A DNA stretch of 64,000 bases from Cliona cf. orientalis (Eukaryota > Porifera > Demospongiae > Clionaida > Clionaidae), in NCBI GenBank assembly GCA_963930775.1, contig OZ005689.1, positions 31,649,235-31,713,234 on the forward strand, written 5' to 3'. The translations under genes were made by a program, and so were the position numbers. Numbering within the stretch: the first letter of the stretch is position 1; each line of letters begins with the position of its first letter. This document shows, one piece after another, positions 4,517-40,943 of this stretch. A model generated the notes under the pieces. That model ran no database searches. It had not been told where the DNA came from and worked only from the letters and a program-made list of their open reading frames with translations.

Positions 4517-4845
4517 GCGCAATTGTGCTTCACAAGCCTCGAGTCCGGTTCCTTGCGCTTCGAGTCCGATTCCTTGCGCTTTGAGTCCGATACCTAGTGT
4601 TGCGCTCGCAGTCCTAGTTCTATTCTTGCGCTTCGACTTCCGGATTCTCGGATAGTTTGTCGATGCTTGCGCTTCGAGTCTGATTCTCAAGGCTTGAGCT
4701 TCAAGTCGGATTTCTTGCGCTTCAACTTCGAATCTCGTCCAGTCCATCAAAGCTTGAGCTTGGAGTTCGATTGTGGATTTTTGCATTTGAGTTCGATTCT
4801 TGGCAATTTTTCGCGTGGAGTCGTGACGGATGCGCATTGAGCCGC
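4517..4845 (-). repeat. terminal repeat array of the Mutator-like element (right end), also open as a minus-strand frame
   Basis: Degenerate tandem units of about 18-24 bp built on TTGCGCTTCGAGTCCGATTC. Read on the minus strand from 4837 they encode a repeated I-R/G-L-E-A-Q pattern. The same array occurs in the opposite orientation at 26700-26994. The similarity continues about 25 bp into the neighbouring coding sequence: the minus strand here gives LHFRATVL, matching LPFKATVV in the gene at 27000. This fits long terminal inverted repeats of one family. Confidence 0.7.
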
Positions 4846-4888
4846 TAAGCTATCACATGACAAGTATAGCGATCGTTATTTGGTAATA

Positions 4889-7397: not shown

Positions 7398-7933
7398 GTA
7401 AGTTTATAATGCTGTATAACATCATTCTAATCAATTGCATGGTGATATAATATAGCTATAATCATGAATCATGCATGCAGTATCATAATGGCGGCTTGAA
7501 AGTATAATTAATGTCTTTGCATCAGTATAATATTTGCATGGTCCATATTATAATAATAATAATATTATTATACATATATTATACAGTCACCTTGGCAGAA
7601 GCAGCTTCAGAAGATGTACATTTCCAGGGGGCATACACATGCATGCACATAATATGCCCCCAGATCTGGCGTTTACACATTCCCCCTCCCCGACAAAAAC
7701 TCCTGTATATAGAATCCTGCCATTATTATAATAATAATATTATAATATAGGTGTGTTCGGTTGAGCGACGATTGAATGTGATGTGGTGGATGTATGTATG
7801 CGAACAATGCTCGCTTATTGCCGTGTTAACAGCTCATTAATGAGTGTATCGAATTAGGCCAGTGTTTTGTATCATAATTACCTTCGTGTAGCTACACATA
7901 CTCAACTTTAGCCACCTTGTATTATGAGAACTA
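7398..7933. other. kinase 1 intron sequence left of the large insertion
   Basis: AT-rich, with aataatattatt palindromes at 7550-7570 and 7726-7745. A possible acceptor at 7749-7750 is followed by VCSVERRLN and a stop after 28 codons. This resembles the paralogue only at the first two residues, so I do not call it an exon. Confidence 0.4.
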
Positions 7934-7944
7934 CACAGAAAAAA

Positions 7945-8215
7945 ATGGTGTGCTATTTTGGTGTTTGTCAATGTGCTGAAGTAGCACAGTACTGTGCTGT
8001 TTACTAATTCAGCACACATAGTGTGTTGTTTCATTTGAACATAGCACAGTAAGTGTGCTGTTTGACTATCCATCAGCACACAACTGTGTAGTTTTAAAAC
8101 AGGTGCTAATTAGCCTTATCTAGGTGTGTTAAATTGGGTGTGCTAAATGTACTGAAGTGTGCTGAAAATAACACTTTGTGCTAAATTAGCACAAAGTGTG
8201 CTGTTTCAATGACCA
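7945..8215. repeat. left subterminal repeat cluster of the CACAG element
   Basis: At least ten copies of TGTGCT or its complement AGCACA in both orientations, for example around 7945, 8014, 8042 and 8155-8200. Likely transposase-binding sites, as in other CACTA-type elements (inference). Confidence 0.65.
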
Positions 8216-8596
8216 TGAGCTATAATTGTGTGTCAAACTAAAGGGCCAGGAAATGGATCTGGCCAGAGTAGTACAATGTCATAATAATATTATTATAATT
8301 ATTATCCTGAATTTGCGTATATATCAATTTGAAAATGTCTAATGTCACTTATGTTGGTGACGTAACAGAGGTGTTAGAATCACGTCACACAAAATTTGAT
8401 AAGTGGCACTTCACCCTTTGTCGATATGAGCACTTGATCACCCGATTCTGATTCCACACACTAAAGTGAACTGGCAGGGATGTTGGTAAGGCCAGAGGAA
8501 GTATTGTCGTACTGTACATATCATGTATAATTCAAAAAATCATATTGACATACATGTACGTTACAATTATAATAATAATAATTATTATGATCGAGC

Positions 8597-11500
8597 TCAA
8601 TAAAAGAGGGTGTGCTTGGCCCAGTGATCCTTTTCTATTAAATATGAACTATGAGCATGTTGTTTGATATGAAGGACCCCATGACAATACAGCTGGGTGG
8701 ACAAACACACCAAGGAATTACTTGTAACATCAACACAGATTGCTCTCAAGTTATTCACAAAGTCACTGATACTCAGTTTGTTGGTTATGAAAATCTTGAA
8801 ATCTTGATAGACATATACATGTGCTATCTGGGCATAGACGAATGGCAGGTCTCCGTGCTCATTATTGGATGTTATGCGTATCACTGAGCCTCGCTTGTAT
8901 GTAGTACCATGAATCTTCACACCTTTACAACTGCATAATAATAATACACAATACAATGATCGTAAACATTGAACAGTGGACACATGTATACACACAGTGA
9001 CACACACACAACTGTCAATCGTACATGTACACACACACACACACACACATACACGTACACACACATATACATGTACACACACATACATTTGTTGGTAGTT
9101 GCCTAGCAACCAAAGTTTTTATAGGTAATTTGCTGGCTACGGAAAGGGGGTGGGTCATCATGAGTAGGCTAATGATGAACAGAGGTCACCTACCAACAAA
9201 TGAGTGATCTGACAGTAATTGGGCCCGGGGTGCATTCGACCATGCATCTCATGCACCCAACTACTGTCAGATAACCATTATTTGTACACACCTCAATAGT
9301 TCCAATGACTCTTTGCCTGATGGAGCCTCTCCACACAAGAAAAGAATTTCCTCCACATATTCATTCACTTCTGTCACTGATCCTACAAGTATGTACACAT
9401 ACATGTGTAGAATAAGGACAATATCAATACAACATTGTTCCTTTTACCTACCTGATATGACTTCATCTCCAGAGTAAAAGAAATTTGACACAGTTTGGCT
9501 GGGATGTATTGCTAGCTGGTGACATATCCACTGCTGATGGTGAATTGCTACAGTGAGTGGCACATTTCTGAACGATGATGATACAAATCGCTTGATTTGA
9601 GCATTTTTCGACTCAAATCGCATGCACCAGTGTTGCCTGAGTGGGCCAAACCTATAAAGAATAGTACATGTACATGTACATGTATATGACATTGTACATG
9701 TAATATTGATGAAGTAAAAACTGACATCAGTATTTGCTTTGGTAGATGGACCAGGTAATGCATCTTTGGTGTCACCGAAGCTCCATACAGACTCGTGAAA
9801 GCCTCCAGATACGTTTCTATCAGCCACCCGAGGTGAGTGGCATCATCTGTTGTCAGTTCAAAGGAGCATACAACACTGCAAATGTCCCACAGTAGCAGAA
9901 AACACTCCCAGTGATCATCATCATGGTCTACCAAATCACCAATGAACAAAGGAAGATGTCTGACTAGGGTCATCATCTGAGAAGCTATGAATGTTTACAT
10001 TATTATGTACATATTACTATTTACACATACTCAGAAAACCATTAATTTTATGTATTATATATTAGAAAATAAGACATGAATTAAAAATAAATTTTGTACT
10101 AGTCTCCCATACTACAGCCCATTTACTCTAGAAGAAGAAAGGATCTGGTCAAATTGATCACACTAATGCATCAGGTTGGAATGCCAATTTTGGTGAGTAT
10201 TAAATAGAAACAACCCATATATTGTGTGTGTACATGGTCTGGGCGTACACATGGAAGTACTAACTACAAATATATGCCTATGTATAGGGTACATGTAATT
10301 ACATTCCAATAATATCATGTGACTTACGCTTCAACCTGTTGGGACGCAGTATACGTGTATGTACATGTACATATACGCGTACCTCGATTGAGGATCGACA
10401 AGGAAGTTGACCCTTTGACCAGACCCTTTCTCGTGTGTGCTGGCATGTGCATAATGTGCATCATGACACATGTGCAATTTTGTTACGTACCTGATTGCTT
10501 AAAATGGAAGTCTGAATGAGAAGTTGACTCTCGACTGATTGGAGATGGTTTGGTGTCCACTTCTGAATAACCATAGTCGTGACTGCTGATAATATGGTTG
10601 AGGTCTCTGAGGCAGAATAGCTGGCACTTGTCAATTACATGATGAAGGAGATGATTGATGTGGTTTGACGCCACACCCTCAAACACTGTGTGCATAACAT
10701 CAAATGGAAGACATTTGGTAATGTCAAATCCAGTCAGGTCCTTGAGTGGGCTGGCACGGTTGATACCATACGTTGCAGAGTCATGACTTGCTCCTTCAGT
10801 TATCAGGTCAAGGTGATCACCATAGGTTGTCAAGTTTCGTTCAATAAACTCTGATGCATGAAACTAATTCAAACAGAGATACAGTGTATGTAACATTGTA
10901 CACACAATTTAAATATACATGTACATGTAGTTGTCAATACCTTGGACGACATATCTGGGAGTGTAGCCAAACATTGCCTGCACTTCCTCAGTGAGAACCC
11001 TACTCCTTCCTTGAAGCCACCGATGTAACAGCTAGCTGGTGTGTCACCACAGAAGCAAACAACTGCTCCATGAAGAACTACAGTCTCATCCCTCAATTTC
11101 AAGGAAAAACCTTCATCCTACAGTGTGTGTATGTAAGCTGATAAGGCAGAATACAAGTCCATGCGAACATACACATGCAGCTCTAATTAGAACCCACCTT
11201 TCCAAGGGTATTGATACTTGAAATGAAATTCTGGATCAATCCATATCGACGAATATCTGAATTTTTTGCGACTGAAATCAGTTGTATTGCTTGAAGTCGT
11301 GAACGAAATATAGGCCGAATATTCCCCAATGTGTAATAAAACACACCTGCAGTTGACATATATGTATTGTACATTAAACAGAATAACATAAACACTGTAT
11401 GCTACCATACCTAACTTGTGTTTTCCAGCTTTCGCGCCTAGGGGATTGGCTACTTCTATTTCATCATAGTACATGATGAACTGGAGAGCATCAGGATACT

Positions 11501-12718
11501 TCGAGAATACCTCATGGTTTCGGAAAAAGTCTCCATCACAAAAGTCCCTCAGAATACCACCAGTGCTAGTATGAGTTGTGGCAATCTCTTGTCTTACAGC
11601 AGGATTGCTCAGCAAAGTCTGAAATTGATGCTACAATGAAATTTATACATCTCACATATATTATAGCTAGTGTACACCGTGCGAATTGCGAGTTTTTGTA
11701 CATTTCGCAATTAATAGATTCGCAAACGTAAACGTACACGTATACTACAGTATGGTACGGGGTCGTCTATCACAATTATTGGATTCGCAATTTGGCCTGA
11801 CTTGACTACAACGCAATTATTAAACTACGCAATTAAAACCTGTCCTACATGTATGCATGTACATCACACTTAAACTGATGTACCTACATGTACCTGTAGC
11901 CCAGCAAACAGGTCCACTTCGTACCCATAGTGTTTTGTCTCCACTAGCTTTCTCTGTCCATTCAGTACAGCCCATTTCCATTCCGTTCCCAAGACAATAG
12001 GTGTTGGTTCCTACAGCACATCCAATAAGGGACTATTTAAATTACATGTAAACTGACCTACATGTACATGTAATCCACAATATTGATCTTACCACATAGT
12101 TGAAGTGATCACAGTAGTACTTCTCTCTACTGTATCTAGATTTCAGCCCAGCAAATAAGTCTCCAGGAATACACTCTTGTAAGATATCTTTCCTATGTTG
12201 TGCATCAACACTTGGTGGCAAACTAGCTTCAACCCGATTCGAAATCTGTGAGCAAATCTTCTCAACAAACCATTGTGTGGAATCACAAAAATTGTCCACA
12301 CCGGCATGAGTAAGAGAATGTTCTTCAGTCATACGTAGCAGGAAACGAGCACTTTCCCAATGCTGGTCAACCTCTTCTTCGTTGTCTGCTGAGTGTTGAT
12401 CATCAAACCAATCATCCACTGGGTCACTACCACTCGCACTGGAAGAGGGGGGCTCACTGGAGGCTACAGCACACACACACGCACACACAAACATTCCAAA
12501 GTAAAACAATACAGTCTCACTTTTCTAAACTTACTTGGATGAGAACGATGTAAGTGTTTCTTTAAAGAGCACCACTTTCTGTAGGTTCGGCCACACAAAC
12601 TGCAACTCACTTGGAAGTTGGCATCATTCTCGTGGATTTCACGTAAATGTTTCAGAAGGGCTCTCTCATCACGACACCCGTAGTCACATAAGTGACAAAA
12701 CGTAGTGGTAGTTGACAT
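8597..12718 (-). CDS. 11-exon transposase with N-terminal C2H2 zinc fingers (820 aa predicted)
   Basis: Exons (minus): 12718-12535, 12463-12093, 12010-11894, 11618-11411, 11346-11198, 11117-10941, 10863-10491, 9984-9726, 9651-9452, 9382-9292, 8930-8597. They sum to 2463 nt with consistent phases and no internal stop. The N-terminus has two C2H2-type fingers (FCHLCDYGC...HLREIH; CSLCGRTY...HLHRSH), then an acidic linker. The core contains MYYDEIEVANPLGAKAGKHK, LGNIRPIFRS, a GGFK...CRQC segment, LPFDVMHTVFEGVA and FGPLRQHWCMRFESKN. I know these motifs from unclassified animal transposases related to CACTA/EnSpm-type elements; no catalytic triad is assigned here. It shares a 189-bp divergent upstream region with the SAM-domain gene. 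Intactness suggests a young element. Confidence 0.8.
9001..9088. repeat. (CA)n-rich microsatellite in transposase intron
   Basis: Interrupted CA/TACA repeats between exons 10 and 11 of the transposase gene. Confidence 0.8.
11672..11850. mobile_element. short MITE, TACCGTAGG family, copy 1
   Basis: Contains the shared internal sequence with GTACGGGGTCGTC and AATTTGGCCTGACTTGACTA seen in the copies at 21940-22986 and 57829-57993. Its terminal TACCGTAGG/CCTACGGTA motifs are degraded. It lies in an intron of the transposase gene, so it inserted after or travelled with the big element. Confidence 0.7.
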
Positions 12719-12907
12719 AGTGGATCATGGACATGCCTACCTAACCCTAACCACTTGTTCTAAATAACGCACACTTTTGAGTGCAATGTTACTTTTCGCG
12801 TAAATAGATGTGTAAAGTTGCTCCATAATGCATAGCAGGTGTCATTTTTTCGAATTGAACGCGGGAGTTAACTTTTTGAGAAGAAGGTGCTGCTAAACTG
12901 TCTTATA
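12719..12907. promoter_or_regulatory. shared divergent upstream region of the two genes in the CACAG element
   Basis: 189 bp separate the two opposite ATG codons (12718 minus, 12908 plus). No clear TATA box is seen. A bidirectional promoter is the simplest inference. Confidence 0.5.
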
Positions 12908-15113
12908 ATGGAAAGACTAACTGTCAGTCAGGTCACATCTTTGTTGAGAGAGCAAGGTTTGCCTGAAGTGCTGTTGGATACTTTATCTGGTAAGTTTTCT
13001 ACCTGGAAGTATGCAAGTAGTGGACTATTTATAATACTGCCAGGCTAGTAAATTGTCATGTTTATTATTATAATCATAATACAATGTCATATTGATAAAA
13101 AGAGATGTATTTTGCATACATTGTAGCAAACTTTATTGATGGAGCAGCACTAACTGTACTCCCAAATGATTTCACGGAATTTTCACACCTCGTCCCCCAG
13201 AGTGGGTTGAGAATAAAGCTTAAAGCTGCTATTGAAACACTTATGACGAGGAGCTTAGAGCAGTTCTCTGAGGTTAGACAATATTTGATAGTGTTGTGTT
13301 GGTTTTGTACACCATATTAAATAAATAATACAAGTCAAAAATTATATTACCAGTATTATCACTCTTAGGATTCCTCACTTAATGGACTAGATGACACCTC
13401 ACTGGGAGAAACAGCTCGAATTATCTCCTCTAGCATGGCAACAACGGATCCAGTGGGCAAGGAAGAATGGCTAGATAATCTCTCTGATCTCAGTGTGTCC
13501 TCCCCACCTCAAGACTTGGTAAAGACCTCTACTCCAGTACCACCGTTAAAACGAAAACAGGATTTCCCTGACCCAGTTCCCAAACGAAAACGAGCTCTGA
13601 GCCCTGACAAAGAGAATCATGATCCTGACAAAACACCAACTAGACCAGATACTAGTGTATGCCGTCTTCCTGAACCGTGCCCACTACCAAACACCTTTTC
13701 ACGAAAGACAATGGATGCAATTGAGCGGGGAGAGCTGCTTGGAACTGCCAAGACCAGAATGTTAAGAGAAGCTGCTACATTTTATTTTGGTGTTTGCTCT
13801 GGCCGCTACTCTTCGGACTACATCACCATCGCCAAGACGCTGTGCAAGGAGTATCCCCAGCTAAAGGACAAAATGCCAACAAATGAAGAATACTGGGTAA
13901 GCTATCGTTGTAGTGTGGAATAAATCATAATGTGTGTATCTTATTCTTTTCCAGAAAACTGTGAAGGACTATATGAGTCAAAAGTTTCGAAATTTGCGCC
14001 GGAAATCTGAACCAGTACCTGCTGATGGCGAGGTGAAAGCCAAGATCATTACAGCACAGCATGCTACACCAGTGGTCGCTCGTCACCAATCATCACAGGA
14101 AGAAGGGGACGCTGTTGCCTACGAGCGGAATATCCAGTCACTGAAGGATGAACTGTCCAAAGGCAGCCCTAACAACAACAGGGTACACCAACTACTCAAG
14201 CTCACCCACGTCACAAGACGCAGACAGATAGAAGATAGTGACCTTCATGCAGTGCTACTGAAAGAAGAATATCCTTTCTTGGGCTTCAAAAAATGGGTAA
14301 GTATCTCTCTTTCCTTTCCTTCCTACCTCCCTTATTATCAGTTCTATGTGTGTTGGGATGGGGCCTCTAAGACCCTTCTCTTTGAGTAGGTGGGGCTGGC
14401 GTGCAAGTTTAGTGTGTGTGCATGACAGATTACTAAGCATACTTGTGTGTCTGCATGCACGGATGTTTGTATACACAACTCATGTATTATTCTATTTATA
14501 TTGTGTAGGTCAAAACAGAGTTTAATCTCTTGTGTGGAGAAGCTGCTGTGGAGACCATCACCAAAAACCTGCTCAAGTTTGCTCCTAAACTGCTTGAGTA
14601 CGGTGGATACCAGGTTCCTGAATCAATTGAAGAAAATGATATGATGAAGGTGATGGAGACCATTGACAAGTCTTTGAGAGGGTCTGGTCAGGGTGCTAAA
14701 GCACCTGGAGTTTATTCACTCTATGAAGTGAGTCAACCACTGTTGATTATGTTTTAGTTTAACCTCATCCCCTTTCACTTGAACAGGCTGGCACAGACGT
14801 TCATAGTGTACTCAAAGAGAAGGCATATACTGAGCCTCGCCTACTCATCTTTTTAAACAAGGCAAACCCCTCCCTAACCCAAGGATTTATTGCAGCGGAG
14901 AAAGAGCTGCTCTTTGAAGTTAGTGACTTCACTGTCACAGAAGGAATCATCTCACTAATAGCCACCTACTGGGCCTACCATATCCAGTATCCTAAACCAC
15001 TCCCTTCCCTCAATTTTATGTTATTCGTACAGGAAGTACTTTTGGAAAGGAAGGACGAAACTGGAGCACGAAAAGGTGCAAAGTATTCTAAACTTTTAAA
15101 TTATGTACTGTAG
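12908..15113 (+). CDS. SAM-domain transposon partner protein (SAMD3-like, 547 aa predicted, 6 exons)
   Basis: Exons: 12908-12989, 13127-13272, 13369-13896, 13955-14296, 14509-14727, 14787-15113. They total 1644 nt with matching phases and a TAG stop at 15111-15113. Residues 1-75 look like a SAM domain: SLLREQGLPEVLLDTL, then NFIDGAALTVL and an amphipathic last helix. A basic, Pro-rich linker with KRKRALSPDKEN (probable nuclear signal) follows. Next come GELLGTAKTRMLREAATF, YPQLKDK and a KFRNLRRK segment, all familiar from SAMD3-like proteins encoded by animal transposons. It is divergent from the transposase inside the same element, so a role as DNA-binding or regulatory accessory is likely but unproven. 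Confidence 0.75.
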
Positions 15114-15289
15114 TGACTCTGTTTACTGGTCTTAGCTGATTATTAAAGTGGTATTTATTTCAGAGGTCTTTTAAGCATCTTTTAAGTTTATTCATTTATT
15201 GCTTTTTGGTAATTATTGTTATTATTATGTACATACATGTATATTGAATGTCTGAGAATTTTGCTCTACTTTCAAAAAGTATGGACTAA

Positions 15290-15489
15290 TCAGCACACTT
15301 CTTGCATGACATTGTGCTAAGTTAGCACACATTTGGAAAAGCACATGTGCTTGTTTAGCACACTTCTAAAATAGCACACATGCTCATTTAGCACACCTTT
15401 CAATTTAGCACATGTGCAACGTGCTGAAACTGGAGACATTGGTTTAGCACATTTTTGTGTGTTGATATAGCACACTTGTTTTCTCTGTG
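15290..15489. repeat. right subterminal repeat cluster of the CACAG element
   Basis: About ten TTAGCACA / TGTGCTAA-type motifs in 200 bp, mirroring the left cluster. Confidence 0.65.
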
Positions 15490-15613
15490 TATGATAGGAG
15501 GTATAGTGTGTGCAACTGAAGAAATCCATTATTATTATTAGTTTAATGTGATTCACTTGTATTATGTATAAATATATAATAATATTAACCTCATTCGTTT
15601 ACAAATACCTTAG

Positions 15614-15778
15614 GCTGATCATTGTAGTCAGTCTAATATGCTGGAGGATATTCAAACTTGTAAAACAAAATGTGATCTAAAGGCAGGTAATCCCTCAGAC
15701 ATAATGGCCACAGCTTTCATGAGTATCAGTAAGAAGTGCATCCATCACAATTACAAGAAGAGGTGTAACATGTCAGAG
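15614..15778 (+). CDS. kinase gene 1, C-lobe exon displaced 8 kb by the transposon
   Basis: A 165-bp exon with 3' splice site TTAG and donor GTAAAT. Its product (ADHCSQSNMLEDI... DLKAGNPSDIMATAF... KKRCNMSE) aligns along its length with exon 15 of kinase 2 (20805-20635), which reads VDYCTEAKLF... DLKAGIPSDIMAETF... KKRCTMST. It is therefore the continuation of the plus-strand kinase at 4889-7397. The exon equivalent to kinase 2 exon 14 and a final exon were not found, so the gene may be incomplete. Confidence 0.75.
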
Positions 15779-16430
15779 GTAAATATATAGCATAATAATA
15801 TTATTATGGCTAACACTATATAATGACCAAATAATATTATCATTATAATATTATATATAAATAATTATATGTTCAGATCATTTGTATGTGGAGCTGTGTA
15901 TCTGATTCCACCATGGATATATAGATCAAGCAACTAGATAGTATATACTATTATAGAGAACTATATTCATCGTACACTGTCAGTGACTGATCCATTGCCT
16001 TATTATCGGGATGAAACTAGTGTGTGCATGCATGTAGCTAATGAAATTCAATCAGAATCTGATTATTATTAAGTTTACCAGTATGTTACTATGATATATA
16101 TAATATAATATAATACTGATATAGTATACAAAACTAATTGTTGTGATAATAATATTATTATTGTAGCAGTAATAGTGCTAAAGATGCACATTGTTTATGA
16201 GAAACTTATAGATTTGAATCCAGTTTGTGTGTGTAACATCCCGGTGTAAGTCTACATTAAATCTTGCTTTGGTTATTCCATTGCAAACAGTGTAAAAATG
16301 CTCATCAAAAAATGGTGGTGGTTGTTTCCTCACATATATGAAATAATAATTGTAAATGTGATTGGTGTACGATAATCTTCAGCCTCTATAATATTATAAA
16401 TTAAATTGCAGTGCTATAATAATAATATTA
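15779..16430. other. no gene recognised
   Basis: AT-rich with many aataatattatt and tatataat palindromes. The final exon of kinase 1 should lie near here but I could not identify it. Confidence 0.4.
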
Positions 16431-16609
16431 TATTTCTCTTACCAAATTCTTCTGGCATGTCAAACATATCCTCAGGGATACCTGAAGGACACTCAATGCT
16501 TCTATTATACCTTATTCTATGCGAGTTCCAATATGCGACAAAGTCCAATAGCTCTTGCTCGAGCATAGTGACTTATACAACAGGCAAACATTTCCTGCCA
16601 TGTTCATTG

Positions 16610-17556
16610 CAGTATTATACACTAAGCCCTCACTTTTGCCTGATTGTGGAATGTGATTCAGTAGTAACCACTAATTACGTTATCTTGCATTTGCGGTGCT
16701 TCGCGCGCGCGCCGCGCCATATATTGGAGTGTATCGGCAACGCCCACACTTACTCTTCGTGACGTCACAAGGTCCTGAGGCCGGCCAGAAGCAAGAGAAA
16801 AATGGTCCTGGTCGACATTTTGCAAGTTCATATTCAACACGAGCAAGGGATTTAGCCAAGGATATTGCACTGGGCAACTCTCGAGGTCAAACTGTCCATG
16901 TGATCTTCATATGACTTGGCTCTGACCTTTTGCATCAAGTTGTCCAGTAAGCTGAAATCGAGCTAGCCACGAGTGTGGCGATTTATTGGTGAGCGATCGG
17001 CTCCATATCTCAACAATGAAGAGAGTTGAAGAAACGAAACTTCTTCCATCCTTTAGTAGTTGTAAAACTAATCTCTATGTGAGTCAGCTAGTCTACAGAG
17101 CTGTTTATACTATGACAGTACGTTATTGAATATAAATTATTTTCATTTTTCATGACCTTCTAATTCAACAAACACAGTAAATATTACTTAGTCAAGCAAA
17201 TATACTATACTGCTAGTGGTACTCTCCTTCCAGCTGAAGTATGAAAGCCTCAGCAGTCTTCGCATCAGGTTGTCCAGAATGTTGAAAATGAGTTGGCCAA
17301 ACATTTACGGCCGACATTCGGCCTTGTATAGCGAGGTAGCTACGCTTTGCAAATTGGATACGAACTGGACGTGCCCATATGTTGTTTAGCTAGTCTTCTT
17401 ACAGTCTGCTGTGTTTCACAACCCAGGAATATACCAGTAGCCAGAAACTAAACTTTTTTGTCATGCATGTTGACCACGATCGCGGTCTCCATATGTTCAA
17501 TACAGCAACCGCAAACCGGAAGTGATCAGGCAAAAGCGAGGGCTTAGCGTATACTG
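16610..17556. mobile_element. 947-bp TIR element, CAGTATACGCTAAGCCC family, copy 1
   Basis: Ends are CAGTATTATACACTAAGCCC and, reversed, CAGTATACGCTAAGCCCTCG. TTG flanks both sides. A nearly identical copy lies at 50075-51017 and a fragment at 47602-47730. No transposase frame inside; it contains a GC-rich CTTCGCGCGCGCGCCGCGCC stretch. It sits within the integrase-like gene. Confidence 0.8.
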
Positions 17557-18949
17557 TTGTAAAAAAATTAATAATAACATCTAATAGATGTGCATGCGGT
17601 TTCTTTATTTACCGGTGAATAGTATCTTGTGGATCAAAATATCCATCTTGCTGTAAGTTCTATGATCAACAACATTATAAGTTAAACAAGTAGCTATTAT
17701 AATAATATAGCATATGTATAATAATATAATATTATGTACCTGCATGCATGCATGTACATAATATTATACGTATATATACCATGCAGTATACAATGTACTA
17801 TCTATAATATAGGCATGCGTATATATACACTATTACAATACCTTCAATGATGATATCCACCATCCAATCTTCATCATTCTCAGCTTTGACCACCAGGATT
17901 CAATTCTCTAAAATTTAATAATAATATTATACTAATAGCTATCATGCATGCATGTTTATAATAATATTATACTGAATTGGTTGGGGATGAACCATATCGT
18001 ACACTACCAGCTCCAGCTAGATTGTCCGAGTGATTCATTCTTAAGGCAACCTGAGCTTCTGCAATTAAACTGTTTTCAATACCACGATCAAATCTCATGA
18101 CACACGGACACCCTATATATTATATAATTATATTAACAGTTTATGCATGTATGCATGCGTTCAGACTGATGTCAGAGGTATATAATAATTATAATAATGA
18201 TACACAATGTCATTATTTATTATGAAAGCGCACAAGCCAATACTCACCATTTAAGGTATGTATACTATCCAAAAAGTATCCAAGTGTCACCGCTGGAGCT
18301 CTGTTAGTGGTCGCTAATGTCAGCCAGATGATCTTCCTTGAGAAACTTTTATCATGAATATTGTATGAATAATATTACATTCTGTATCATAGCTTATTAT
18401 TATAATGCTCACCCATCAATGCAGCCATGAATAAAAAAAACCAAATGTTGACAACTTGTCGTACTGGTCGACATGCCAAGCATAATTGGGTCCCTATAGA
18501 TTATAATATTATTATTACACATTGATACAAAAACCATTGCATGCATGGTCTAGCTTAAAATTTGTACAACAAAAATTAATTAAAGCTTACCTTACTGGTA
18601 TAGACTCTACGTATAATTCTATGACGAGCTCTTTCACGTACACCAACAGGATCTATTTGTCTCAGTACCAGCATAACTGTGCTCCTATACCATGGCAGAA
18701 TTAATAATATTATTCATAGTCATGCATGCATATATCACGTCAATAATTTATAGGTACACAATCATAACTATAGCATTATGCCGCCGATGATTCACAAAAT
18801 TGATATTATAAAACCTTTTCACTTGTAATCCATATTTATCCTTCAGAATTCTCCACATTATTCTATATCCAACATGTTCATTTGATGTGTTGAGCTCATG
18901 CTGTAATGATTAACAAACTATGATCCGTGACTGAATGTATGGTGCATGA

Positions 18950-19850
18950 CAGAGAACCATGCATAATTATAATAAATATGGTTTGCGTGCATTCAAAATT
19001 AATACTATAATATATTATAATAATGTCATTATTCTGCTTCATCATATTCTTTACAATGTCATGCCTGACATGTTATTATATTATTGTATTAGCTATACAC
19101 CAAATTATTTAATAATAGCAACTTACAGTTACTGTTATATGCAGTCTTACTCCATGCAAAATAGCTATTGGCTCGCGATTGCGATCGAGTGACGGCTTCC
19201 TGGGCTCGAGCCCAGGGGTTCGTGCTTGATCCTTACTAAGGTAAGCAATGCGCTGCCATGCAGTCACATGATTCGGGGCGAGCCTGAGCGAGCCCCGAAT
19301 ACACGAGGTACAGGAAGCGGTTTTATATGTATATATATATATATATATGTTTGTGGGGTGATCATTTCAGTGAGGAGAGAGTTAAATTTTTAACGCGTAA
19401 GGTAATGGTCGTCATGCGCATGCGCATACGCCTGCACTGCACCATCGATCTGAGAGACAACTCGAGTGTAGGCATGGCATAAAACTGGAAAGGTGAGTGC
19501 TGTACCACTCTGGCAAGGCTCAGGTCCACGATTAGCATCACTGGTAGACTCCACTTTCCTGAGCATGAAGATGACTGCATGGAGGCTTATTCCCTCAGGG
19601 CCTGGCTACAGGTACTTGGACTCATGGTCATGGCATGTAGACCATCAACATTATTGGACTAGCTTTTGCCATTATACTAGCAATCTGTGATACTTTCACT
19701 GTTGTGGTAGCTTCTCAGTCCTAGCTATTGGGGTACCAACCCTATGTGCGCACGTATACTTGTGTGACTCTTGTGACTTTGGCGAAGGCTCGCCCCGCAC
19801 AGATGATTTTCATCACCACTAGTATATAGTTTACAATCACATGCATTATA
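18950..19850. other. long intron of the integrase-like gene with palindromes
   Basis: Holds an 18-bp perfect palindrome CCTGGGCTCGAGCCCAGG (19199-19216), an inverted repeat ATTCGGGGC/GCCCCGAAT (about 19270-19300) and a TA dinucleotide run (19326-19349). No exon seen. Confidence 0.5.
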
Positions 19851-20514
19851 TTTCTTAAATTTTAGCTCAGTATTATAGCTACATGCACTGTGAGTATAAT
19901 ATAGATCTAAAGTATACCCATACCATGATGCAGTTGGTAATAATAGAGACTCCTGTGTACGCACGAGAACGTCTACGAAGGCCTAACCGTGCATATTGTC
20001 CTTTTAGCCATCTCAAGCTAAAATGCAGATATCCATATTATAATGTTATCATACAGAAATTATATATACTCAGACAAGCATGCATGCAGCCTTCAATATA
20101 TTATCATTTTATACCTACGACGAATTCCATGGACACTACGAAGTCGTTGCAAAATCACCTTGTATGAAACGCCACGAATGAAATAAATTAGTGAATAGTT
20201 CTGCCATGCATGTACGGTTATTATTAGAAGTCAAGGATTAATGATGCTAATATATACCGTCCAATTCTCTAGGAGAGAGCGCGGCAGAAGTCATCCTGCA
20301 TGTACGACATCGATCCTCGAGCAGCACTTGGTAAGTATCGTCAACAGTATAAGTAAAATTAATATCGATAACAAATTAATTTTAATAATGGGCAACCACA
20401 ATACAATCGGTAAACAATAATTAATAAATGAATTGAGTGCCTGAATGTTTGAAGACTTCATGAGTACAATTATTTTAAGAATGCTTGCATGAAGGTATAT
20501 CCTAGCTATCAGTG

Positions 20515-23500
20515 TCAATCATCTGTGGACTGCCTCAGTACAGCTGACCACATTTCAATAACCTGCGTATAGGAGGTATAATAATTATATCAGAGTTAAT
20601 AGTTCTCTACTATAATACTATTGAATATACTGACCGTTGACATAGTACATCTCTTCTTGTATAAACGCTGAGCACACTTCGTGCCTATTTTTATAAAAGT
20701 TTCAGCCATTATATCTGATGGAATGCCGGCCTTAAGGTCACTCATTGCTTTACAAGATATGTCCACCTTCTCGTCAAATAACTTTGCTTCAGTACAGTAA
20801 TCCACCTGCATGAAAAGCAATCAAAATTTATTTCATTCTTGCATGATACATGATACATGCTGAGTATTCAACAGCACTCACAAAATTCAGTTGCTATAAT
20901 ATTAAAACTGATTGCCCAAGTACACAATTATACTAAAAACTCACCAATTTCTCTTCTTCACGTTGCTCAGAATATACAAGGAGTCCAGTGTAAGTTTCTA
21001 AGCAAACCTTGATCAACCGAATAATCATCCATATACAATAATAATCATAGTTTTTATACTTACTACACCATAGCCATATACATCACTAAGGGGACTACGT
21101 TTGCCGTCATTAAACTCAGGGGGTGTGTACCCACGAGAACTAGCTAATCCAACAGCTCCAGCAGCAGTTACTACTGTGGTACAACCAACATTAGTAGACG
21201 TGGGAGTGACGAAACCAAAATCAGCCACTTTTGCAGTATTGAGGGCATCCAGCAGTATAGTTTGTCTTCATGGTATATAAAATCAACATCAGATTCTATA
21301 CTCTATATATTATACTAATCAATAGTTACGATTTAATATCTTGATGGATAAAAGGAGGATGTGAAGAATGGAGGTAGGCAATACCGCAGGCTGTACCATG
21401 CAATATATGTACTCGCTGGTCCCAGGTGAGGGGATTATCAACCTATATACAATGTCATAACAAAATTACTGGATTATACGACACATAAATTGCATCAACT
21501 GCATAGTGCAATCACTGCCAAAACATTACGATGGGCAACCCCATATCATCAACATTATTATTATTATAATGTATAGTATACCCTGGTACACATTAATAGT
21601 ATTATCTGTATTATATGCAGTACCATGAATCATCAGTGACCTTTACCTTGTAAGTATGAAGGCGATGGTATAGACATTTGTTGTGCATATATGGATACAC
21701 AAGCATTTTGGGGGCTTCGCAGTATCCCATGAGTGTAATAAGATTGGGATGCCTAAATCTGCATAATACCAAAAACACTGTCAGATGGAGCCAATTATAA
21801 TATGCATGCTTATCCAATATCTTCATAACCTGGAGAGGTTGCTTATTTCAGTTGACATTGAAGGTACTCCTGGGGTTGACTCTCTGTCAATCTATTGGAT
21901 AAAGGCACTGTAACAAGCATTAATCTTACATAATTAATATACCGTAGGTCGGGTTTTAAATGCGAATATCTATTAATTGAAAGGTTTTCTATATTTAGCA
22001 ATTAATAGATTCGCGAACATAAACATGCACGTACAGTCAACTCTCTCTTAGCGGACGCTCCGAATAGCGGACTCACACGTTATAGCGGACACTGCTCCAT
22101 GCACGGATTGATTTCCATATTATTACTGTACAAAAAAACTCCCGAATAACGGACTCTCTGGTTTCCGGACAGCGGACACTTCGGATTGAACGCTGTAATA
22201 CAATACAATGATAATCGTTTCCTGAATAACGGACAGTGGGCGGGGCATAGCATGCATGCATGGCATCATGATTCAGGTGGTTGACATTGATGACGCAGTA
22301 CAGTTAGGCTCTCTGATTCAAAGTGCCATGGGTGAATCAAGTTGCTCTGCCGAGGAGTATGTTGCTGGAGAAGATGCTATCCCCGTGTGTGCTGACTTTG
22401 ATTGTGAAGACTGGGATGAGAATTGGTTGAACAGTTTGAACGTCGACAATCCCGATCAGTTCTGATACTGAGGAAGTAGATTATGATCTACTACCGCCAC
22501 CACCCTAATTAACATGTTTTAAGCAAGCTATTGAAGCTCTGGAGGATGTACAAGCATTCTTGGAACACCGAGGCTATGTTGAGCAAGCAACATCTGTAGG
22601 AAAAGTGATGATCAGTTAATCTAGCTGGCATTATAGTGTTCATAATTATACTCAGACTAGCTACAATTGATCAATACTTTTCATAATGATAGTTTTTGAG
22701 GTGCTGAGTCATTGAATTCTCATATTAAACATGTTAACATCATTTGAGTCATTGATATTATTATTTTAAACATTATTAAGCATGAATTTCACAAAACTCC
22801 CCAATAGAGGACACTCTCTAAATACAGGACAAAGGCTGTCGTACCAAAGTGTCCGCTATTCGGAGAGTTGACTGTATACTATAGTACGGTATGGGGTCGT
22901 CCGTCGCAATTATTGAATTCGCAATTTGGCCTGACTTGACTAGAACGCAATTATTAAACTAGGCAATTAAAACCCGTCCTACGGTATCCCAGTTGCAGAC
23001 CTTGTATGCACTATATTGACGACCTTTTACCACAAGCATGCACCATTATATAATAATAGCTATGTAGCTACTGGGGGATAATGAAAACATTCATATTAAT
23101 ATACTCACCTCAAACACCTTGACAGCAACTGCCAATCCTTCATAACAACCTTTGTACACTCTGCCAAATCCTCCCTTTCCAATAAGATGGGAAAAGGATG
23201 AAGTAGCTTCAACGATCTCTTTATTAGAGAATTCACGCACGAGCGCTCCGGCTGCTTTGGCTATAAGGAGGTCTCTATGATAATAATAGGCCCAATAGTA
23301 TTAGAGTTAACACATACAATCACTTGATTTGGGATCTGAACTATGGGGTATGCTTCCACCTTCTGCTCTGGGATCAACATCATGTGGTGCAACACTGGTA
23401 CCTTCTGGTGTAGTATGTGGTGTTGGACCACTATCACCAGAGGAATCATACAACATATCTGTATTTTCATGATAACTATTATGATTGTATGTGAATATCT

Positions 23501-26162
23501 ATTAAAGGTTGACACAATCTTTGGTTTTCAGCCCCCCCCCCCCCCCCCCCCCCCATTATTATGCAAAATTATGTTTATTCCTGGTCCTAGTGTATATTAT
23601 ATCCTAGTGCTTTGTTGGTCAGTTGTCCAGTGGAAAGAATAAACAGGCATTCGGGATTCCAGACAATAATATTTATCTGCAATGTGGTTTGTAAGTGTAC
23701 CTATGCATATCATGATTGTGGTATAATGGCACAAGCCAGAGGAATTTCCATTATCTATACATGAAAGGCAGAACCACACACCTTTAGAAACCCACAATAC
23801 AGCTGACTATGACTCCACAAAACAGACATTTCCTCACCACAAGCACTCTACTTTAAATTAGTATGCAACCAGGGTACATGTGGTTTACAATGTAGCTACG
23901 TTTGAAGTATCATAGTACCAAATAGATAATCATGCATGCAGAAAGTTTTGTCATACCATCAGAAACATGAATGCTCCCAGAACGGCATTTGGCACTGTTG
24001 TCCTTATTTTCAACCGTACATCTGTACGTACCACTTTTCGTCACATACAGTACTGGACTACACTGGCGTAAGAACCAGGGGGGCTGGGGGGGGGGGGGGG
24101 GGGGCAATTGCCCCCCCAGTCATAAGATTGGGGGGGCAGAGCCCCTCTGATTTTTAGACTGCATACTGTACAAGCCAGGGGGTGGGGCTCACCCTCTGAG
24201 GTTTGCACTTTTCTTTTTCATCTGTTGCCACAATCAGGGTTGAGTTATTCATGATTGTGGTGTATCTTAGCCCCACGGTGTGTAGATATCAATAATTGTC
24301 ACATGTGACAAGCTAAGAGTCCAGAATGTCCTCGAAAATGCACTAGAAAAGCTCTCAGAAGGTCTAAAACTCCAAAATTTTCCTGGGGGAGCATGCCCCC
24401 AGATCCCCCTAGCTTTCGCGCGCTACGCGCATGTAAAGCGAATCTTCACCTCCTTATTTTCAGCCCCCCTGCTCAAAAACATCTTCCTACGCCACTGCTG
24501 GACCATACAACCCCACATTTCCTTTGATATTATCCCAGTGGTATCTATACTTGGATGAGTGATGTGAAGCTATACAGAACAAGGGCATAACTGGACCATC
24601 AAGGGCGCAATCCTTGCTCTGGTGAACTACACAAAAGGATTCTGCAGGAATCAATTCTTATAATTCATCATCACAAACCTGTTGTCCACTTACCCTTATC
24701 GTCATAAACACTGAAGCCACTACCATTATAATTCAAAACAGTTGTACCCTCTGCAGGTAATAATTAAGGTTGCTAATTAAAACAAATGATTATGCATGCA
24801 TTAATTTACCATACTCAATTTTGCAAACATCATATCCCGACTGTTCTGGGTACCACGGTACTGGTTTGTCCATACAAGAAATAGGTAGAGATAGAGAATT
24901 TACAGATTTCCAAATATCTGAGCGTGCTTTCATGTGGGTAGAATCCAAGCCCATGATCCCAATGTTTGGTGCGTACCACACTATAATTCAGTATAGGTAC
25001 CATTTGAGATTGAGCAAGTGTAAGAGTAATACCTTTCAGCTGGCTCTCAGTATGCTTTTGCCTTTTGCCAGGAAGGTCTGCAGCTGACTCCAAATTAAAA
25101 TGTTAGCACCTGGGTGTATATATTTAACTACTTTTGATTAGAAATAAGGCTTCACTGCAGGCTACATGCAAAATTTAATGGTAAAGGGTCACTTCAATAT
25201 TAAGCAACCAGAATACATACCTCAAACATCCCAATACCAAGCTTAACTTGGGTTTGCTTATGAAATGTATGTTTCACATAAGTCGCTATGGTCCATGGAC
25301 ATTCCTCATCATTGATAAGCAATGGCTGATCTAGCACTCTGGTTCCACTAACTCTGCAAATTTGTGGAACGTCATACCCATCCTCGTCTTCCCATTCACA
25401 AGCTAGGCCTTGTACTGCTTTATGGACGCATTCAGCATACGTTTCATCTCCGGAAAAGGAGATTTCAACGTAGTCATCTACTTTAGCCAAACCACCTTTC
25501 CGTCCTCGCACCATCTTACAAGAAAAAAAAAAACGATTTTAATAACTAGCATATCATGTGGTCCAAGAATGTTCATGGTATACTTCATACACCATAGCCT
25601 CCCCCCTCCACCAAACCGCCACAACCACCATCACCTTTCCTCCAGAATTCTTCTTGTATACGACATGTAGACAACCCGAACCCGAACTTCACACACACAC
25701 ACACACACACACACATACATACATACACTCACACACAAAACATGTATACATGTGATACTTGGTGTTGTACACACTTCGAGGTAGGTATTTTTTATATGTA
25801 TATTAATATTATAGCAAGGTACATACAGTGGTTTTACAACTTACATGCATTGCCTTTTTGCATGACTTTCTACCCACTGACTTGCTCATAGCTAGCCTTG
25901 TACTACGTGCCTTAGCTATTACAGCACGATCATCTTTGAAAATTAGCATAAAAAGAAATGCAGTAAAATTATAGCATCACAAGAAATAAAAATAAGAGTT
26001 ACCTTCACTTAAAAAGTCAGATGAAGTGGATGAAGAAGGGTGTGGAGAGCTCGATCCAGACAGTGGAATAGTTTCATTCAAGATGTCCACGATGGTACTT
26101 TTAAGTGACGTTTGGAGTTTATCAGCTATTTTATCCACCACTGCTTTCTTTCTGCCGGCCAT
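20515..26162 (-). CDS. kinase gene 2: Ig-like domain plus RLK/Pelle/IRAK-type kinase, 16 exons, one exon split by a transposon
   Basis: Exons: 26162-26003, 25933-25845, 25514-25221, 25087-25033, 24980-24810, 24750-24694, 24641-23957 (split), 23458-23318, 23260-23109, 21891-21830, 21758-21647, 21442-21330, 21265-21064, 21007-20945, 20805-20635, 20562-20515. Phases agree throughout. Without the insert the total is 2130 nt, 709 aa. Start MAGRKKAVVDKIADKL has no signal peptide. Exons 3-6 are of unknown fold. Exon 7 is Ig-like (LFCIAS, YHWD, SGTYRCTV). Exon 8 is a Ser/Pro/Asp-rich linker. Kinase: IGKGGFGRVYKG, VAVK, TEISNLSRFRHPNL, IHQDIKS, VADFGFV, GYTPPEF, SDVYGYGV; all key residues are present. 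No membrane segment was found, so an intracellular Ig-kinase is possible (compare the cytoplasmic Ig domains of MALT1). The family acts in innate signalling in animals; that role is inference here. Confidence 0.8.
22034..22874 (+). mobile_element. 841-bp pogo/Tigger-type element nested at TA
   Basis: Ends CAGTCAACTCTC and GAGAGTTGACTG are flanked by TA on both sides (22032-22033, 22875-22876). The interior repeats AGCGGAC/CGGACA motifs typical of pogo/Tigger termini. An internal frame (22256-22465) is short and acidic and probably the remnant of a transposase C-terminus. Confidence 0.85.
22256..22465 (+). pseudogene. remnant transposase C-terminus in the Tigger-type element
   Basis: About 69 codons, strongly acidic (DFDCEDWDENW), without a catalytic domain. 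Tigger/pogo transposases end in an acidic tail, which is the basis for the call. No helix-turn-helix or DDE part remains. Confidence 0.45.
23530..23553. repeat. C-homopolymer in kinase 2 intron
   Basis: About 22 consecutive C between exons 7 and 8. Confidence 0.9.
24061..24497. mobile_element. 437-bp hAT-like MITE inserted in the Ig-domain exon of kinase 2
   Basis: Left end CACTGGCGTAAGAA and reversed right end CAGTGGCGTAGGAA are inverted. Flanks are CTGGACTA (24053-24060) and CTGGACCA (24498-24505), 8-bp direct repeats with one mismatch, the hAT target length. Read through on the minus strand it introduces stops. Taking out the element and one flank copy gives a 240-bp exon whose phases match both neighbours. 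It contains a G-run near 24086-24103 and a CGCGCGCTACGCGC stretch. Confidence 0.9.
25688..25715. repeat. (CA)n microsatellite in kinase 2 intron
   Basis: ACAC run between exons 2 and 3 of kinase 2. Confidence 0.85.
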
Positions 26163-26172
26163 AATATAGATC

Positions 26173-26542
26173 CAGAGGAGGTAGGACACGCTTGACCTTT
26201 GGCTAATAGTTCACTAATTAAATCGCTAGTATAGGCTTTCGTGAAGGTTTTTAGAGAAAATCGTTGTGATTTTCGAACTCAGCGCTATTGATTTAGTGGG
26301 GGGAGACCCTCTTAGTTAGCACTGTAGAGCAATTTTTAGGTCCTTGGAATGTTAATCAGCCGCTTTGATTAACATTCCAAAGACCTAAAAATTGTGCTAA
26401 TAAAGAGGGGCTCCCCCACTAAATCAATAGCGCTGAGTTCGAAAATCACAACGATATCCTCTTAAAATCTTCACGAAAGCCTACAATAGCAATTTAATTA
26501 GTGAACTATTAGCCAAAGGTCAAACGTGTCCTACCTCCTCTG
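26173..26542. mobile_element. 370-bp foldback (MULE-type) element with 9-bp target duplication, just upstream of the kinase 2 start
   Basis: Arms 26173-26357 and 26367-26542 are long inverted repeats with few differences and a 9-nt loop; termini CAGAGGAGGTAGGACACG. Exact 9-bp direct repeats ATATAGATC flank it (26164-26172, 26543-26551). A 9-bp duplication and long arms are the signature of Mutator-like elements. The kinase 2 start codon is 26162-26160, so the insertion lies almost at the ATG. Confidence 0.9.
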
Positions 26543-26639
26543 ATATAGATCACTCAGACTGATAAACTTGAGCTTGACCTGGCTAGCTGCACACATACAC
26601 CACATAAACACTAACCGTGACCACGTGTAGTGTATCATT

Positions 26640-26994
26640 GATGTGGGCGGGGCTTACCAGAAAGCCCGCACCCGGCCCGGCCCCACGCCGGCTGCGCCGC
26701 GAGTGAAAGTGAAGCGCGCACGCATGGAATCAAGCATTGAATCTGACTTGAAACACATGGAATGGAACTCGAAGCATTGCAATCGAAGCGGAACAGGAGG
26801 CGCATTGAATCTGACGCGAAGCGCATGAAATCGAACTTGAACCTCACTTCGAAACGCATGGAATGGAACTCGAAGTATTGCACTCGAAGCGGAACAGGAG
26901 GCGCATTGAATCTGACGCGAAGCGCATGAAATCGAACTTGAAACTCATTGAATCCGACTCGAAGCGCATGGAATCGAACTGGAGGCTCATCAGT
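26640..26994 (+). repeat. terminal repeat array of a Mutator-like element (left end)
   Basis: Degenerate units with GAAGCGCATGGAATCGAACT and GCGCATTGAATCTGACGCG; one roughly 120-bp block recurs at about 26760-26830 and 26855-26940. It is the reverse complement of the array at 4517-4845. In the frame of the next gene it encodes I-R/E-L-E-A-H units, but TGA and TAA codons break it upstream of 26951. Confidence 0.7.
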
Positions 26995-28910
26995 TGGAAA
27001 TCGAAGCGCACGATAGGAAACTAGCTTCATTGCCCTTTAAGGCTACTGTAGTTGAGCTGTTTGAGCGTCTGAAGCTACCTGTGTTTGATGGTGTTCAGGC
27101 TGCTCTGGAGACATTCAATCGACAGAGAAAGATGTATTTAGATCAGGAAAAGACCGATTCCTCCAAGCAGAGGCGAATACAGTTAAAAAGTGAGCAAACA
27201 GTGGATGCACAGTGTCGCAAGCTGTGGTCAAAGAAGCATGGCCACGATACCTACGGCAGTGACGACAGTGACATAGACGAAGATGAACTCAAACGAAAAG
27301 GACAGAAGAAGCGTACAACTGGAGGGACGTGCAAGTGTGGGTCCACCACTCACCTATGTACCAACCATAGTGAATGTCCTTTGAACGTCAAAAATCAGAG
27401 AAGTGGTGTTTCTGTGGATGACAGAGCATCTGACAATAATGATGTCATTTCCTATTCTGAGGATACCCTGTCAGACGCAGAAAGCATTTCTTTGGAAAAA
27501 AGTGTGCCTACCCCAACTGGTGACACTAGTTGGTGTTTTGAAGATAACGTAATAAGTGGTATCTGCGTGTGCGGAGCACTTGGACGAGCACACAAGAGGG
27601 ATTGCCCCTCAAACTCACAAAATCGTTACGTTGGGTGCACATTGTTTCCCAAGGCCTCTTCTGCTGACTCTGACAAGAATGGCAAGGATGATGCTTGTGT
27701 GAAATCCAAACCTCCTAAAGCAAGCAAGCCGGTCGATACGAGGTCCACTCGTCGAGGAAAGAGAGAAAAGCCAGGTGGTGAGAAGCCTCCCCCAGCGAAA
27801 AAGCCTAGGCCCAACTTCAAGGTGGGTGACTGCGTGAATTTGCATGATAGCAAATTGGGCAAATGTCACCTTCCTTGCTGCGTTGTGCAAGTGTTTGGTG
27901 ATCGATGCCTACTATGTTGTCACAAGGGAGTTCTCACTACTGGCTATGCAAAGGGGCAGTTGACGGCTATCAGCGGTGATCTATCCATTTCAGTAGACAA
28001 CTGGCGAACTGCAGGAAGGATCTCACTACGAGATGTAGCAAATGATTCTGCAAATCTCAAAGTGTGTAACTGTGGCCTAACCAAGACTGTTGTTGAGCAT
28101 GTTGTTGACCTGACTGACGATCCCACAGCCTTGTCTTCAGCCGATGGTTCTGCAGTTGTAAGCAACACCTGGGTGTCCACTCCACTGTACACCTTGCACA
28201 TAGATAAGAAACGGGAAATTGTTTCATCTGATGGTTGGCTCTCAGACACAGTCATTAGGGTCGGTCAGTTGCTCATCTTGCAGGAATTCCCAAACATAGC
28301 CGGCCTGCAAGATCCGGCAGTTCACAGGAGTCTGTCGTTCCAAATCCTCATAGGAGAATTTGTGCAGATCATCTTTGTTGGAGGCTGTCACTGGTGTACT
28401 GTTTCCAACGTTGGATGTGACAATGGAGTGGTCAATGTGTACGACAGCATGTACTCCAGTGCTTCCAGTGGGACGGTCAAATTGATTGCCAGCCTTGTGT
28501 TCAGTCCTGCTAAACAGCTTGTAGTGAGAATGATGGATGTTGGAAGGCAGTCAAATGGTTCCGATTGTGGAGTCCTTGCCTTAGCATTTGCATACGACAT
28601 TTGCGGTGGTAATGACCCGTGCAAGATCAAGTACGATCACAGGTCTATGAGGCAGCACTTGGCAGAGTGCTTGGAGAAATGTCGCCTCTCTCGCTTCCCA
28701 GCGGTCGGCGAGCGCAGGACTGTTGGTGTCAGGCACACCCAGTCAGTGGACCTTCACTGCTCCTGCCGCTTGCCCGAGGAAATAGGTGATAAAATGGCCG
28801 AGTGCGATGTATGTAAAACCTGGTACCACAAACACTGTATGGACGTTCCTAACTATGTTTTTGAAAAAAAAGATGTCCCCTGGAAGTGTAAATCATGTGC
28901 CGCAGTGTGA
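26951..28910 (+). CDS. Ulp1-type cysteine protease with C-terminal PHD finger, transposon-encoded
   Basis: Open from 26951 to the stop at 28908-28910. No ATG precedes the LEAH-repeat segment; the first in-frame ATG is 27132 (MYLDQEKTD), so the true start is uncertain. Order: a short helical N-terminus, Cys-rich CKCGSTTHLCTNHSECP and ICVCGALGRAHKRDCP knuckles, a basic Pro/Lys stretch, then a C48 (Ulp1/SENP) domain. GGCHWCTVSN carries the His, VNVYDSM the Asp and RQSNGSDCGVLAL the Gln and Cys. The last 55 residues are a PHD finger: CSCRLPEE..DKMAECDVCKTWYHKHC...WKCKSC. Ulp1-like genes are known cargo of some MULEs. I infer that this is the left half of the same family whose transposase half lies at 2914-4516. 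The transposase is absent here. Confidence 0.8.
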
Positions 28911-39923: not shown

Positions 39924-40943
39924 CTAGGAGGAAAGCAGGAGTGTATAATTCGCTAATTCCTGCCGAGGGATCTTAATGTATCTTTGATATGCATCACTCT
40001 CCCATCTGCCTAGGATCTTGATCAGACTGTCCTCCATGCCATTAGCAGCTGCTGTAGACGCTGCTCCGATCCGGAAGCTGTGTCCGTTGAAATCTGAAGC
40101 ATCTGCTCCAGCCAGCTGCAAAGCCTTTTTGACCTCCTCCACGAAGTGGGCTCTGGTTAGAAACTGCCCATTCTCCCAGATGAATACAGGACCTGGAGCC
40201 GTCCCCCTCACCACCAAATAACTCAGCAAAGCAGATACAGGGCACAGTGGGGACTTATTTGTCTTCCCAAGGACGACTGTGACACCCTTCCTTAGCTGAT
40301 CTGTCTTTGACTGCTTCAAGTTAATTAAGACCATAGAAGGGGCCTCGAGGCGATCAACTGATATGTCGGAGATGGACAGATGAACCTTGTCATCGAATTG
40401 GCTGACTCCTGATGCTGTGAACTCCCCGACTCGTAGGAAAGCGAAAAATGCTAGGCATGAAGCAGCCCATAGCATTTTGGCGTTCCTCAAATCTGTTCGT
40501 CTTTCCCATACTGCAAAAAGCTTGCTGAGAAGTGTAGGTGTAATTGGCTGGCGTTCCTTCCTAGGATTAGGCTTTAGGGCGCCATCTCTCCTTATTCCCC
40601 TCATGATGTACTCCAGGCGTGCCATCCGTGAGATACCAGGATCCCCCAGCCCATTTTGTATCTGGTAATGTCGTATTGCTGACAAATAGACTTTCAGTGA
40701 GGTGTAGGACACACCTTCTTTCGCGAGAGCAGCCACAAATGCCGATAGGGTCTCCTCTCTTGCTGGAAGAGTCGGACGACTGAGCCTTACACAGAAGCTC
40801 TTATATCTCCTGATACCAGACTGATAGGACTTGAGTGTAGACTTCGCTAGACCTTTCGCAAAGAATTCATCAGCGCTCGCCTGACATTGTTCCCATTCAG
40901 CAGAGACCATTGATGGTCCTATATTAAGAGTTATAATGAGCAT
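39924..40943 (-). CDS. tyrosine recombinase of a DIRS-like retrotransposon
   Basis: 339 codons. An N-terminal SAM-like core-binding region (STLKSYQSGIRRYKSFC) is followed by the catalytic domain. FLRVGEFTASG carries Arg I, NGHSFRIGAAST the His-x-x-Arg box and DAYQRYIK the nucleophilic Tyr. DIRS-type elements use this enzyme instead of a DDE integrase to join their circular cDNA to the genome. No stops interrupt it. The start ATG at 40943 may be upstream of the real start; an alternative lies at MVSAEWEQC. It follows the RT-RNase H frame with a 108-bp gap. Confidence 0.92.
   Translation of the reverse strand: MLIITLNIGPSMVSAEWEQCQASADEFFAKGLAKSTLKSYQSGIRRYKSFCVRLSRPTLPAREETLSAFVAALAKEGVSYTSLKVYLSAIRHYQIQNGLGDPGISRMARLEYIMRGIRRDGALKPNPRKERQPITPTLLSKLFAVWERRTDLRNAKMLWAASCLAFFAFLRVGEFTASGVSQFDDKVHLSISDISVDRLEAPSMVLINLKQSKTDQLRKGVTVVLGKTNKSPLCPVSALLSYLVVRGTAPGPVFIWENGQFLTRAHFVEEVKKALQLAGADASDFNGHSFRIGAASTAAANGMEDSLIKILGRWESDAYQRYIKIPRQELANYTLLLSS

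Follow-up and report, generated by a model that had tools for sequence, protein, structure and literature searches.

What becomes of a gene once a short transposon has entered one of its coding exons, and does the interrupted copy keep any function? We addressed this question in the window, a 64,000-nucleotide stretch of a Cliona cf. orientalis contig (C1), where such an element lies in exon 7 of an Ig-kinase gene (Table 1). The gene model, reconstructed on the minus strand between 26162 and 20515, has 16 exons (exon 4 starting at 25087) and 15 of 15 introns bounded by GT..AG, which bears out the position inside exon 7 of a 16-exon gene given by the earlier note. Re-reading 24061-24497 likewise agreed with its description of a 437-bp element with inverted ends and flanks identical at 7 of 8 positions. 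Removal of 24053-24497 leaves an exon 7 of 240 bp with phase 1 at both ends and a frame of 709 aa followed by a stop, as had been claimed for removal of the element plus one flank. The stops predicted for the minus-strand frame with the element in place were also found: the retained exon translates as ...GLYGPAVA and then reaches TAG at 24489-24487 (open frame 24490-24657, minus strand). The codon of V48 is the insertion point of the element, with P47 and V48 straddling the site.

Table 1. Positions of the interrupted gene, the inserted element and associated features in the window.
Feature	Position	Strand	Basis
C1 side of segmental duplication; partner C2:1337435-1351389	4491..27050	.	locus comparison
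16-exon gene, C1 copy: N-terminal region, Ig domain, RLK/Pelle (IRAK-like) protein kinase	20515..26162	-	exon model and translation; Pfam Pkinase on C2 protein
Exon 7 (Ig domain), 685 bp with element, 240 bp without; symmetric phase 1-1	23957..24641	-	exon model
Non-autonomous DNA transposon (MITE), 437 bp, CA..TG ends	24061..24497	+	alignment to family copies
Left target-site copy CTGGACTA, with T where the empty site has C	24053..24060	+	comparison with C2
Right target-site copy CTGGACCA, same as C2 empty site	24498..24505	+	comparison with C2
In-frame TAG, three codons inside element on exon 7 read-through	24487..24489	-	open frame and gene frame
Exon-12 donor, GTAACT in C1 and GTAAGT in C2 (scores 6.2 and 9.1)	21324..21329	-	site matrices
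Intron-9 insertion of C1 with no counterpart in C2; TA duplication; ends CAGTCAACTCTC / GAGAGTTGACTG	22034..22874	+	C1/C2 comparison
C1-only insertion that begins 10 bp upstream of ATG; inverted arms; 9-bp duplication ATATAGATC	26173..26542	+	C1/C2 comparison

A genome search with the exon flank returned one further place, C2:1348905-1349057 (99% identical), two places in all. The locus on this second contig (C2) has all 16 exons, a single CTGGACCA at the site and a whole 710-aa frame, whose product matches Pfam Pkinase at E=1.5e-35. In the stretches compared, homology between the two loci ends on either side, inside contigs of 37.5 and 14.8 Mb, and such bounded homology on two large contigs points to a segmental duplication and not to an allele at the same place. 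The empty site recovered by the genome search thus lies in a paralogue, and the term "allele" used in the earlier note should give way to that word. The two copies differ at 195 of 8650 non-coding sites (2.25%) and at 23 of 2122 exonic sites, and form a before-and-after pair within a single genome, one member of which carries the transposon while the other lacks it; their neutral divergence of about 2% can serve for dating. Two of the other insertions that separate the loci are listed in Table 1; the one near the ATG we take to be Mutator-like from the length of its duplication. A further one at 16610-17556, present in C1 and absent from C2, has a TTG duplication and the ends CAGTATTATACA and TAGCGTATACTG. 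The right edge of the duplication is overlapped by a 652-codon open frame (26952-28907) with a PHD finger and a weak match to Ulp1 protease, to which 50 proteins are related among the matches listed.

Six paralogous Ig exons are listed in the genome besides those on C1 and C2, and five of them (L056, L058, L059, L063 and L067, leaving out C1:29864944) were compared. These five and P0001, a full-length homologue with 34% identity, all cross the site without an insertion. As the C2 copy is insertion-free too, the site was empty ancestrally, and C2 preserves its condition from before the insertion. The Ig alignment comprised six members, with L063 left out because of a stop within its exon. Both P47 and V48 are invariant across it, as are C22, W35, Y57 and C59, which make up the Ig signature Cys..Trp..Tyr-x-Cys. 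A profile of the six matched the MALT1 Ig domains (3k0w) with a whole-sequence E of 6.2e-6 (best single stretch 0.014), and Pfam Ig_2 was found in 6/6 members at E<=1, the best at 1.5e-5 and the C2 member at just 0.13, below the cut-off. The predicted fold is a beta sandwich (pLDDT 83.5) with V48 at the start of a predicted strand, 48-51, and a Foldseek search with the model gave top rows that were largely Ig-type, all at E>0.1. The Ig label of the earlier note gains from the MALT1 profile match, the Ig_2 matches and the predicted fold, but draws nothing from Pfam scans of the whole C2 protein (E<=1) and of P0001, which returned no Ig domain, or from the C2 member's own Ig_2 score. The N-terminal and Ig region by itself (residues 84-356) had no homologue at E<=0.001. 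The gene family, comprising the gene in the window and paralogues L056-L067, joins a MALT1-like Ig to a kinase of the IRAK/Pelle type; no signal peptide or membrane span was seen by eye. Among the matches listed, its members lie mostly on C1, which leads us to guess that the interrupted copy could be the older of the two and the C2 copy the derived one.

The element belongs to a family that is well represented in this genome. Its ends are CACTGGCGTAAGAA and, inward from the opposite side, CAGTGGCGTAGGAA, and the exact 16-bp element end occurs 158 times genome-wide. For the family set we scored the best 40 of 1165 candidates, which are 40 distinct copies (that of the window and 39 others), and aligned all of them. 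The 38 copies with both ends measure 416-493 bp. Substitutions relative to the majority sequence are below 1% in 6/40 copies, at 1-2% in 24/40 and higher in 10/40, with a median of 1.5%, and these low distances indicate a young, star-like family. The copies are thus short, non-coding and alike, with inverted ends and with 30/40 within 2% of the majority, as expected of a MITE. The idea of a preserved gene with a long-standing insertion was dropped, because an apparent copy divergence of 10-15% proved to be length differences. At the upper extreme, L046 (15%) shares the 5' end but diverges beyond it; inspection by eye revealed no transposase in this copy. The window copy differs from the majority at 6 of 427 compared bases, two of them private, and is without 41 bp of the 468-bp majority; most or all of this segment is also absent in L003 and L039 and partly in L044 or L034.

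Several other copies drew our attention. L021 was considered as a second kinase exon and rejected, as it occupies a short fragment next to tandem repeats, and L022 lies inside an open frame that, by eye, resembles a DDE transposase. The copies L027 (C19:4896994-4900459) and L028 (4870029-4873494), about 27 kb apart, are separated by zero substitutions and agree in the 12 bp shown at either side, and are probably a recent local duplication. The window also carries other mobile sequences: a transposase fragment at 359-913 (Pfam DDE_Tnp_1_7, E=1.9e-50) of the piggyBac type, and a DIRS-like arrangement at 39927-42836, in which an RVT_1 reverse transcriptase (41055-42836) adjoins a tyrosine recombinase-like Phage_integrase frame (39927-40958).

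The earlier note had called the element hAT-like, which the family as a whole does not establish. Among the 38 copies with both ends (L044 and L046, with rearranged ends, being left out), 33 have exact 5-bp target duplications, one (L007) has an exact 8-bp duplication, the window copy matches at 7/8, and three (L005, L006 with 4/5, and L018) have neither size. The canonical 8-bp hAT duplication is therefore not a property of the family, and only the window copy by itself looks canonical; 5 bp fits both hAT5 and Transib-type elements. Transib duplications are exactly 5 bp long, and Transib elements prefer GC-rich targets. Such a preference is not apparent among the 33 sites of this family, whereas its CA..TG ends and 5-bp duplications are as in the Transib/CMCT clade, for which the accessible portion of PMC12730594 gives 5'-CA..TG-3' ends and duplications of 2-5 bp; the same portion gives 5-bp target duplications for the hAT5 subgroup. 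The likeness to hAT5 extends to one element end, which begins CAG, but the other begins CAC, and no transposase partner could be linked to the family among the loci examined. No long end-pairs were present in the family loci. Matches to the hAT dimerisation domain number 148 among the 150 scored of 230 candidates in the genome; inspection by eye of 100 listed of the 158 ends showed such a match within 10 kb of only two, in each case on the outer side. By hand count, 91 of the 148 lie on C1, which is 17% of the genome, all within 13.9-37.3 Mb, and the arm in question could be rich in repeats or have been joined in an odd way.

At the window copy, the chance of 7 or 8 flank matches is 25/65536, or ~4e-4, for a fixed register and equal base use. 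By comparison with the empty site, the left flank in C1 has undergone a C to T change after insertion. The 8-bp flank may be read either as a true 8-bp duplication or as a 5-bp GACCA plus a CTG repeated at the element end; the true 8-bp duplication is tentatively favoured because L007 matches at 8/8. Two 8-bp duplications, in L007 (8/8) and at 24053-24505 (7/8), are unusual within a 5-bp family if a single transposase moved all copies. The literature that we found on MITEs held nothing directly useful on 5-bp versus 8-bp hAT duplications.

To what extent has the C1 copy decayed? In the coding sequence, with one inserted codon excluded (C2 has one extra near 655), the two copies are distinguished by 14 replacement and 9 silent codons, giving dN 0.0085, dS 0.0214 and dN/dS 0.40. 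Using the relatives, with kinase residues of P0001 placed by eye, 5 of the 14 replacements could be polarised, four well and one weakly, and 9 could not. All five fell on C1 (a p of only 0.03 for five of five on one side). They are A288 (V, V, V, I, I and Y in relatives), C502 (S in 5/5), T551 (N in 5/5), S591 (G in 5/6, R in one) and, weakly polarised, S343 (G in 3/6, W and T in others, and S, as in C1, in the distant P0001). The Asn of codon 551, Thr in C1, we take to be that of the kinase catalytic loop.

Outside the element, the C1 frame contains no stop and no frameshift. In 4000 simulations a neutral C1 copy remained free of stops with a probability of 0.44, so the intact frame supports function only weakly; an argument for selection from the open frame was dropped for this reason, and an "otherwise intact" frame tells little at such an age. 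Around the gene there are 14 non-exonic gap runs in 2761 bp, several of them in simple repeats, and 10 are not multiples of 3; by arithmetic from this rate, ~3.9 frameshifts would be expected in C1 if it had been neutral since duplication. As none is found, constraint probably acted on C1 during part of this period. Divergence per lineage since duplication is ~1.1%, and the element carries between 0.5% (private differences only) and 1.4% (all differences), from which we infer that the insertion was roughly contemporary with the duplication or later, in agreement with the empty site on C2.

These data suggest that a young non-autonomous DNA transposon in the Ig exon has probably made the C1 copy null, and that the C2 copy, with an empty site and a whole frame, probably carries the function. 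The earlier note had left a choice between a null allele and a new intron, of which the first is favoured, for the copy, and the second finds no support in the sequence, as the splice sites indicate. Site matrices were derived from a single gene, the C2 copy with its 15 introns (45-504 bp). Among 135 GT-AG pairs that would remove the element, 43 stay in the open frame, about the third expected by chance. The best in-frame pair, donor 24508 (5.3) and acceptor 24022 (6.9), scores within the limits that leave-one-out analysis gives for the 15 real introns; it would take out the element together with 14 Ig codons, YGPVLYVTKSGTYR, including the invariant P47, V48, G55 and Y57. Near-precise removal of the element as a new, introner-like intron, for example 24508-24058 with two codons lost, would preserve the frame and the invariant Pro-Val, and its TAG acceptor arises from the substitution in the left flank. 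However, this acceptor scores -3.7, under the lowest of the 15 real ones (-3.4, leave-one-out), and across 40 copies the open span over the empty junction has a median of 71 codons compared to 78 at random points of the same loci. Since family-wide spans are not longer than the controls, the introner reading has no family-level support; an introner family was rejected on this absence of excess in open frames, and we regard a new intron at this site as very unlikely.

Loss of the Ig domain is another way in which C1 might still yield a protein, either by skipping of exon 7 or through the 24508-24022 intron, with a kinase that would probably be inactive. The symmetric 1-1 phase means that skipping leaves the Ig-less frame open, and the score of the second route and the zero frameshifts in C1 fit such a product; in our view, in-frame skipping, which the earlier note had named solely as a refuting observation, would be a stronger rescue route than a new intron. 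An Ig-less C1 product is nevertheless unlikely, given that kinase residues have changed on C1 too, the catalytic-loop Asn among them, that the exon-12 donor is weaker in C1, and that the 14-codon loss would remove four invariant residues. The short introns on C2 would favour retention over skipping. The exon-7 splice sites in C1 score well (9.1 and 8.6), which counts against a null copy. There is a slim chance that C1 makes something new, an Ig-less pseudokinase without the catalytic Asn that dampens the intact C2 kinase or acts as its decoy. Finally, the C2 block could be the other haplotype of C1, as 2.25% non-coding divergence could equal heterozygosity, or the element could be misassembled at the long G-run, the artefact that the earlier note had warned of. 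With 39 other copies of the element (in the best 40 of 1165) and 158 exact ends, with target copies matching the empty site fully and at 7/8, with homology ending on both sides within the two large contigs, and with several further insertions separating the loci, an artefact seems extremely improbable.

The C1 copy is thus most likely a dying duplicate, because of the TAG in the element, the five polarised replacements on C1 and the C1-only insertion near the ATG. In the proposed course, the Ig-kinase gene was duplicated between C1 and C2, and the MITE would have inserted into exon 7 of C1 after or around that event. The C1 transcript would then keep the element, stop early and be degraded, and the copy would decay under relaxed selection. 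If the C1 copy is dead, the pair shows the course of duplicate decay after a hit.

Among known systems, introners, or transposon-derived introns, are reportedly treated by Gozashti et al. 2022. Introners with terminal repeats and target duplications exist according to the accessible portion of PMC9860276, and the element in exon 7 resembles them as a non-autonomous element with both features in a coding exon, but differs in the absence of an excess in open frames and in the weak acceptor for near-precise removal. The locus is closer to a duplicate inactivated by a MITE: a young MITE interrupts a coding exon and brings in an early stop, the sister copy is intact, and the polarised changes lie on the interrupted copy; it differs in that the remaining C1 exons stay open. 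Inactivation of one duplicate by a MITE is a general route of pseudogene formation after segmental duplication. The C1/C2 pair is likely a well-resolved case of this known process, the ordinary decay of a spare gene copy.
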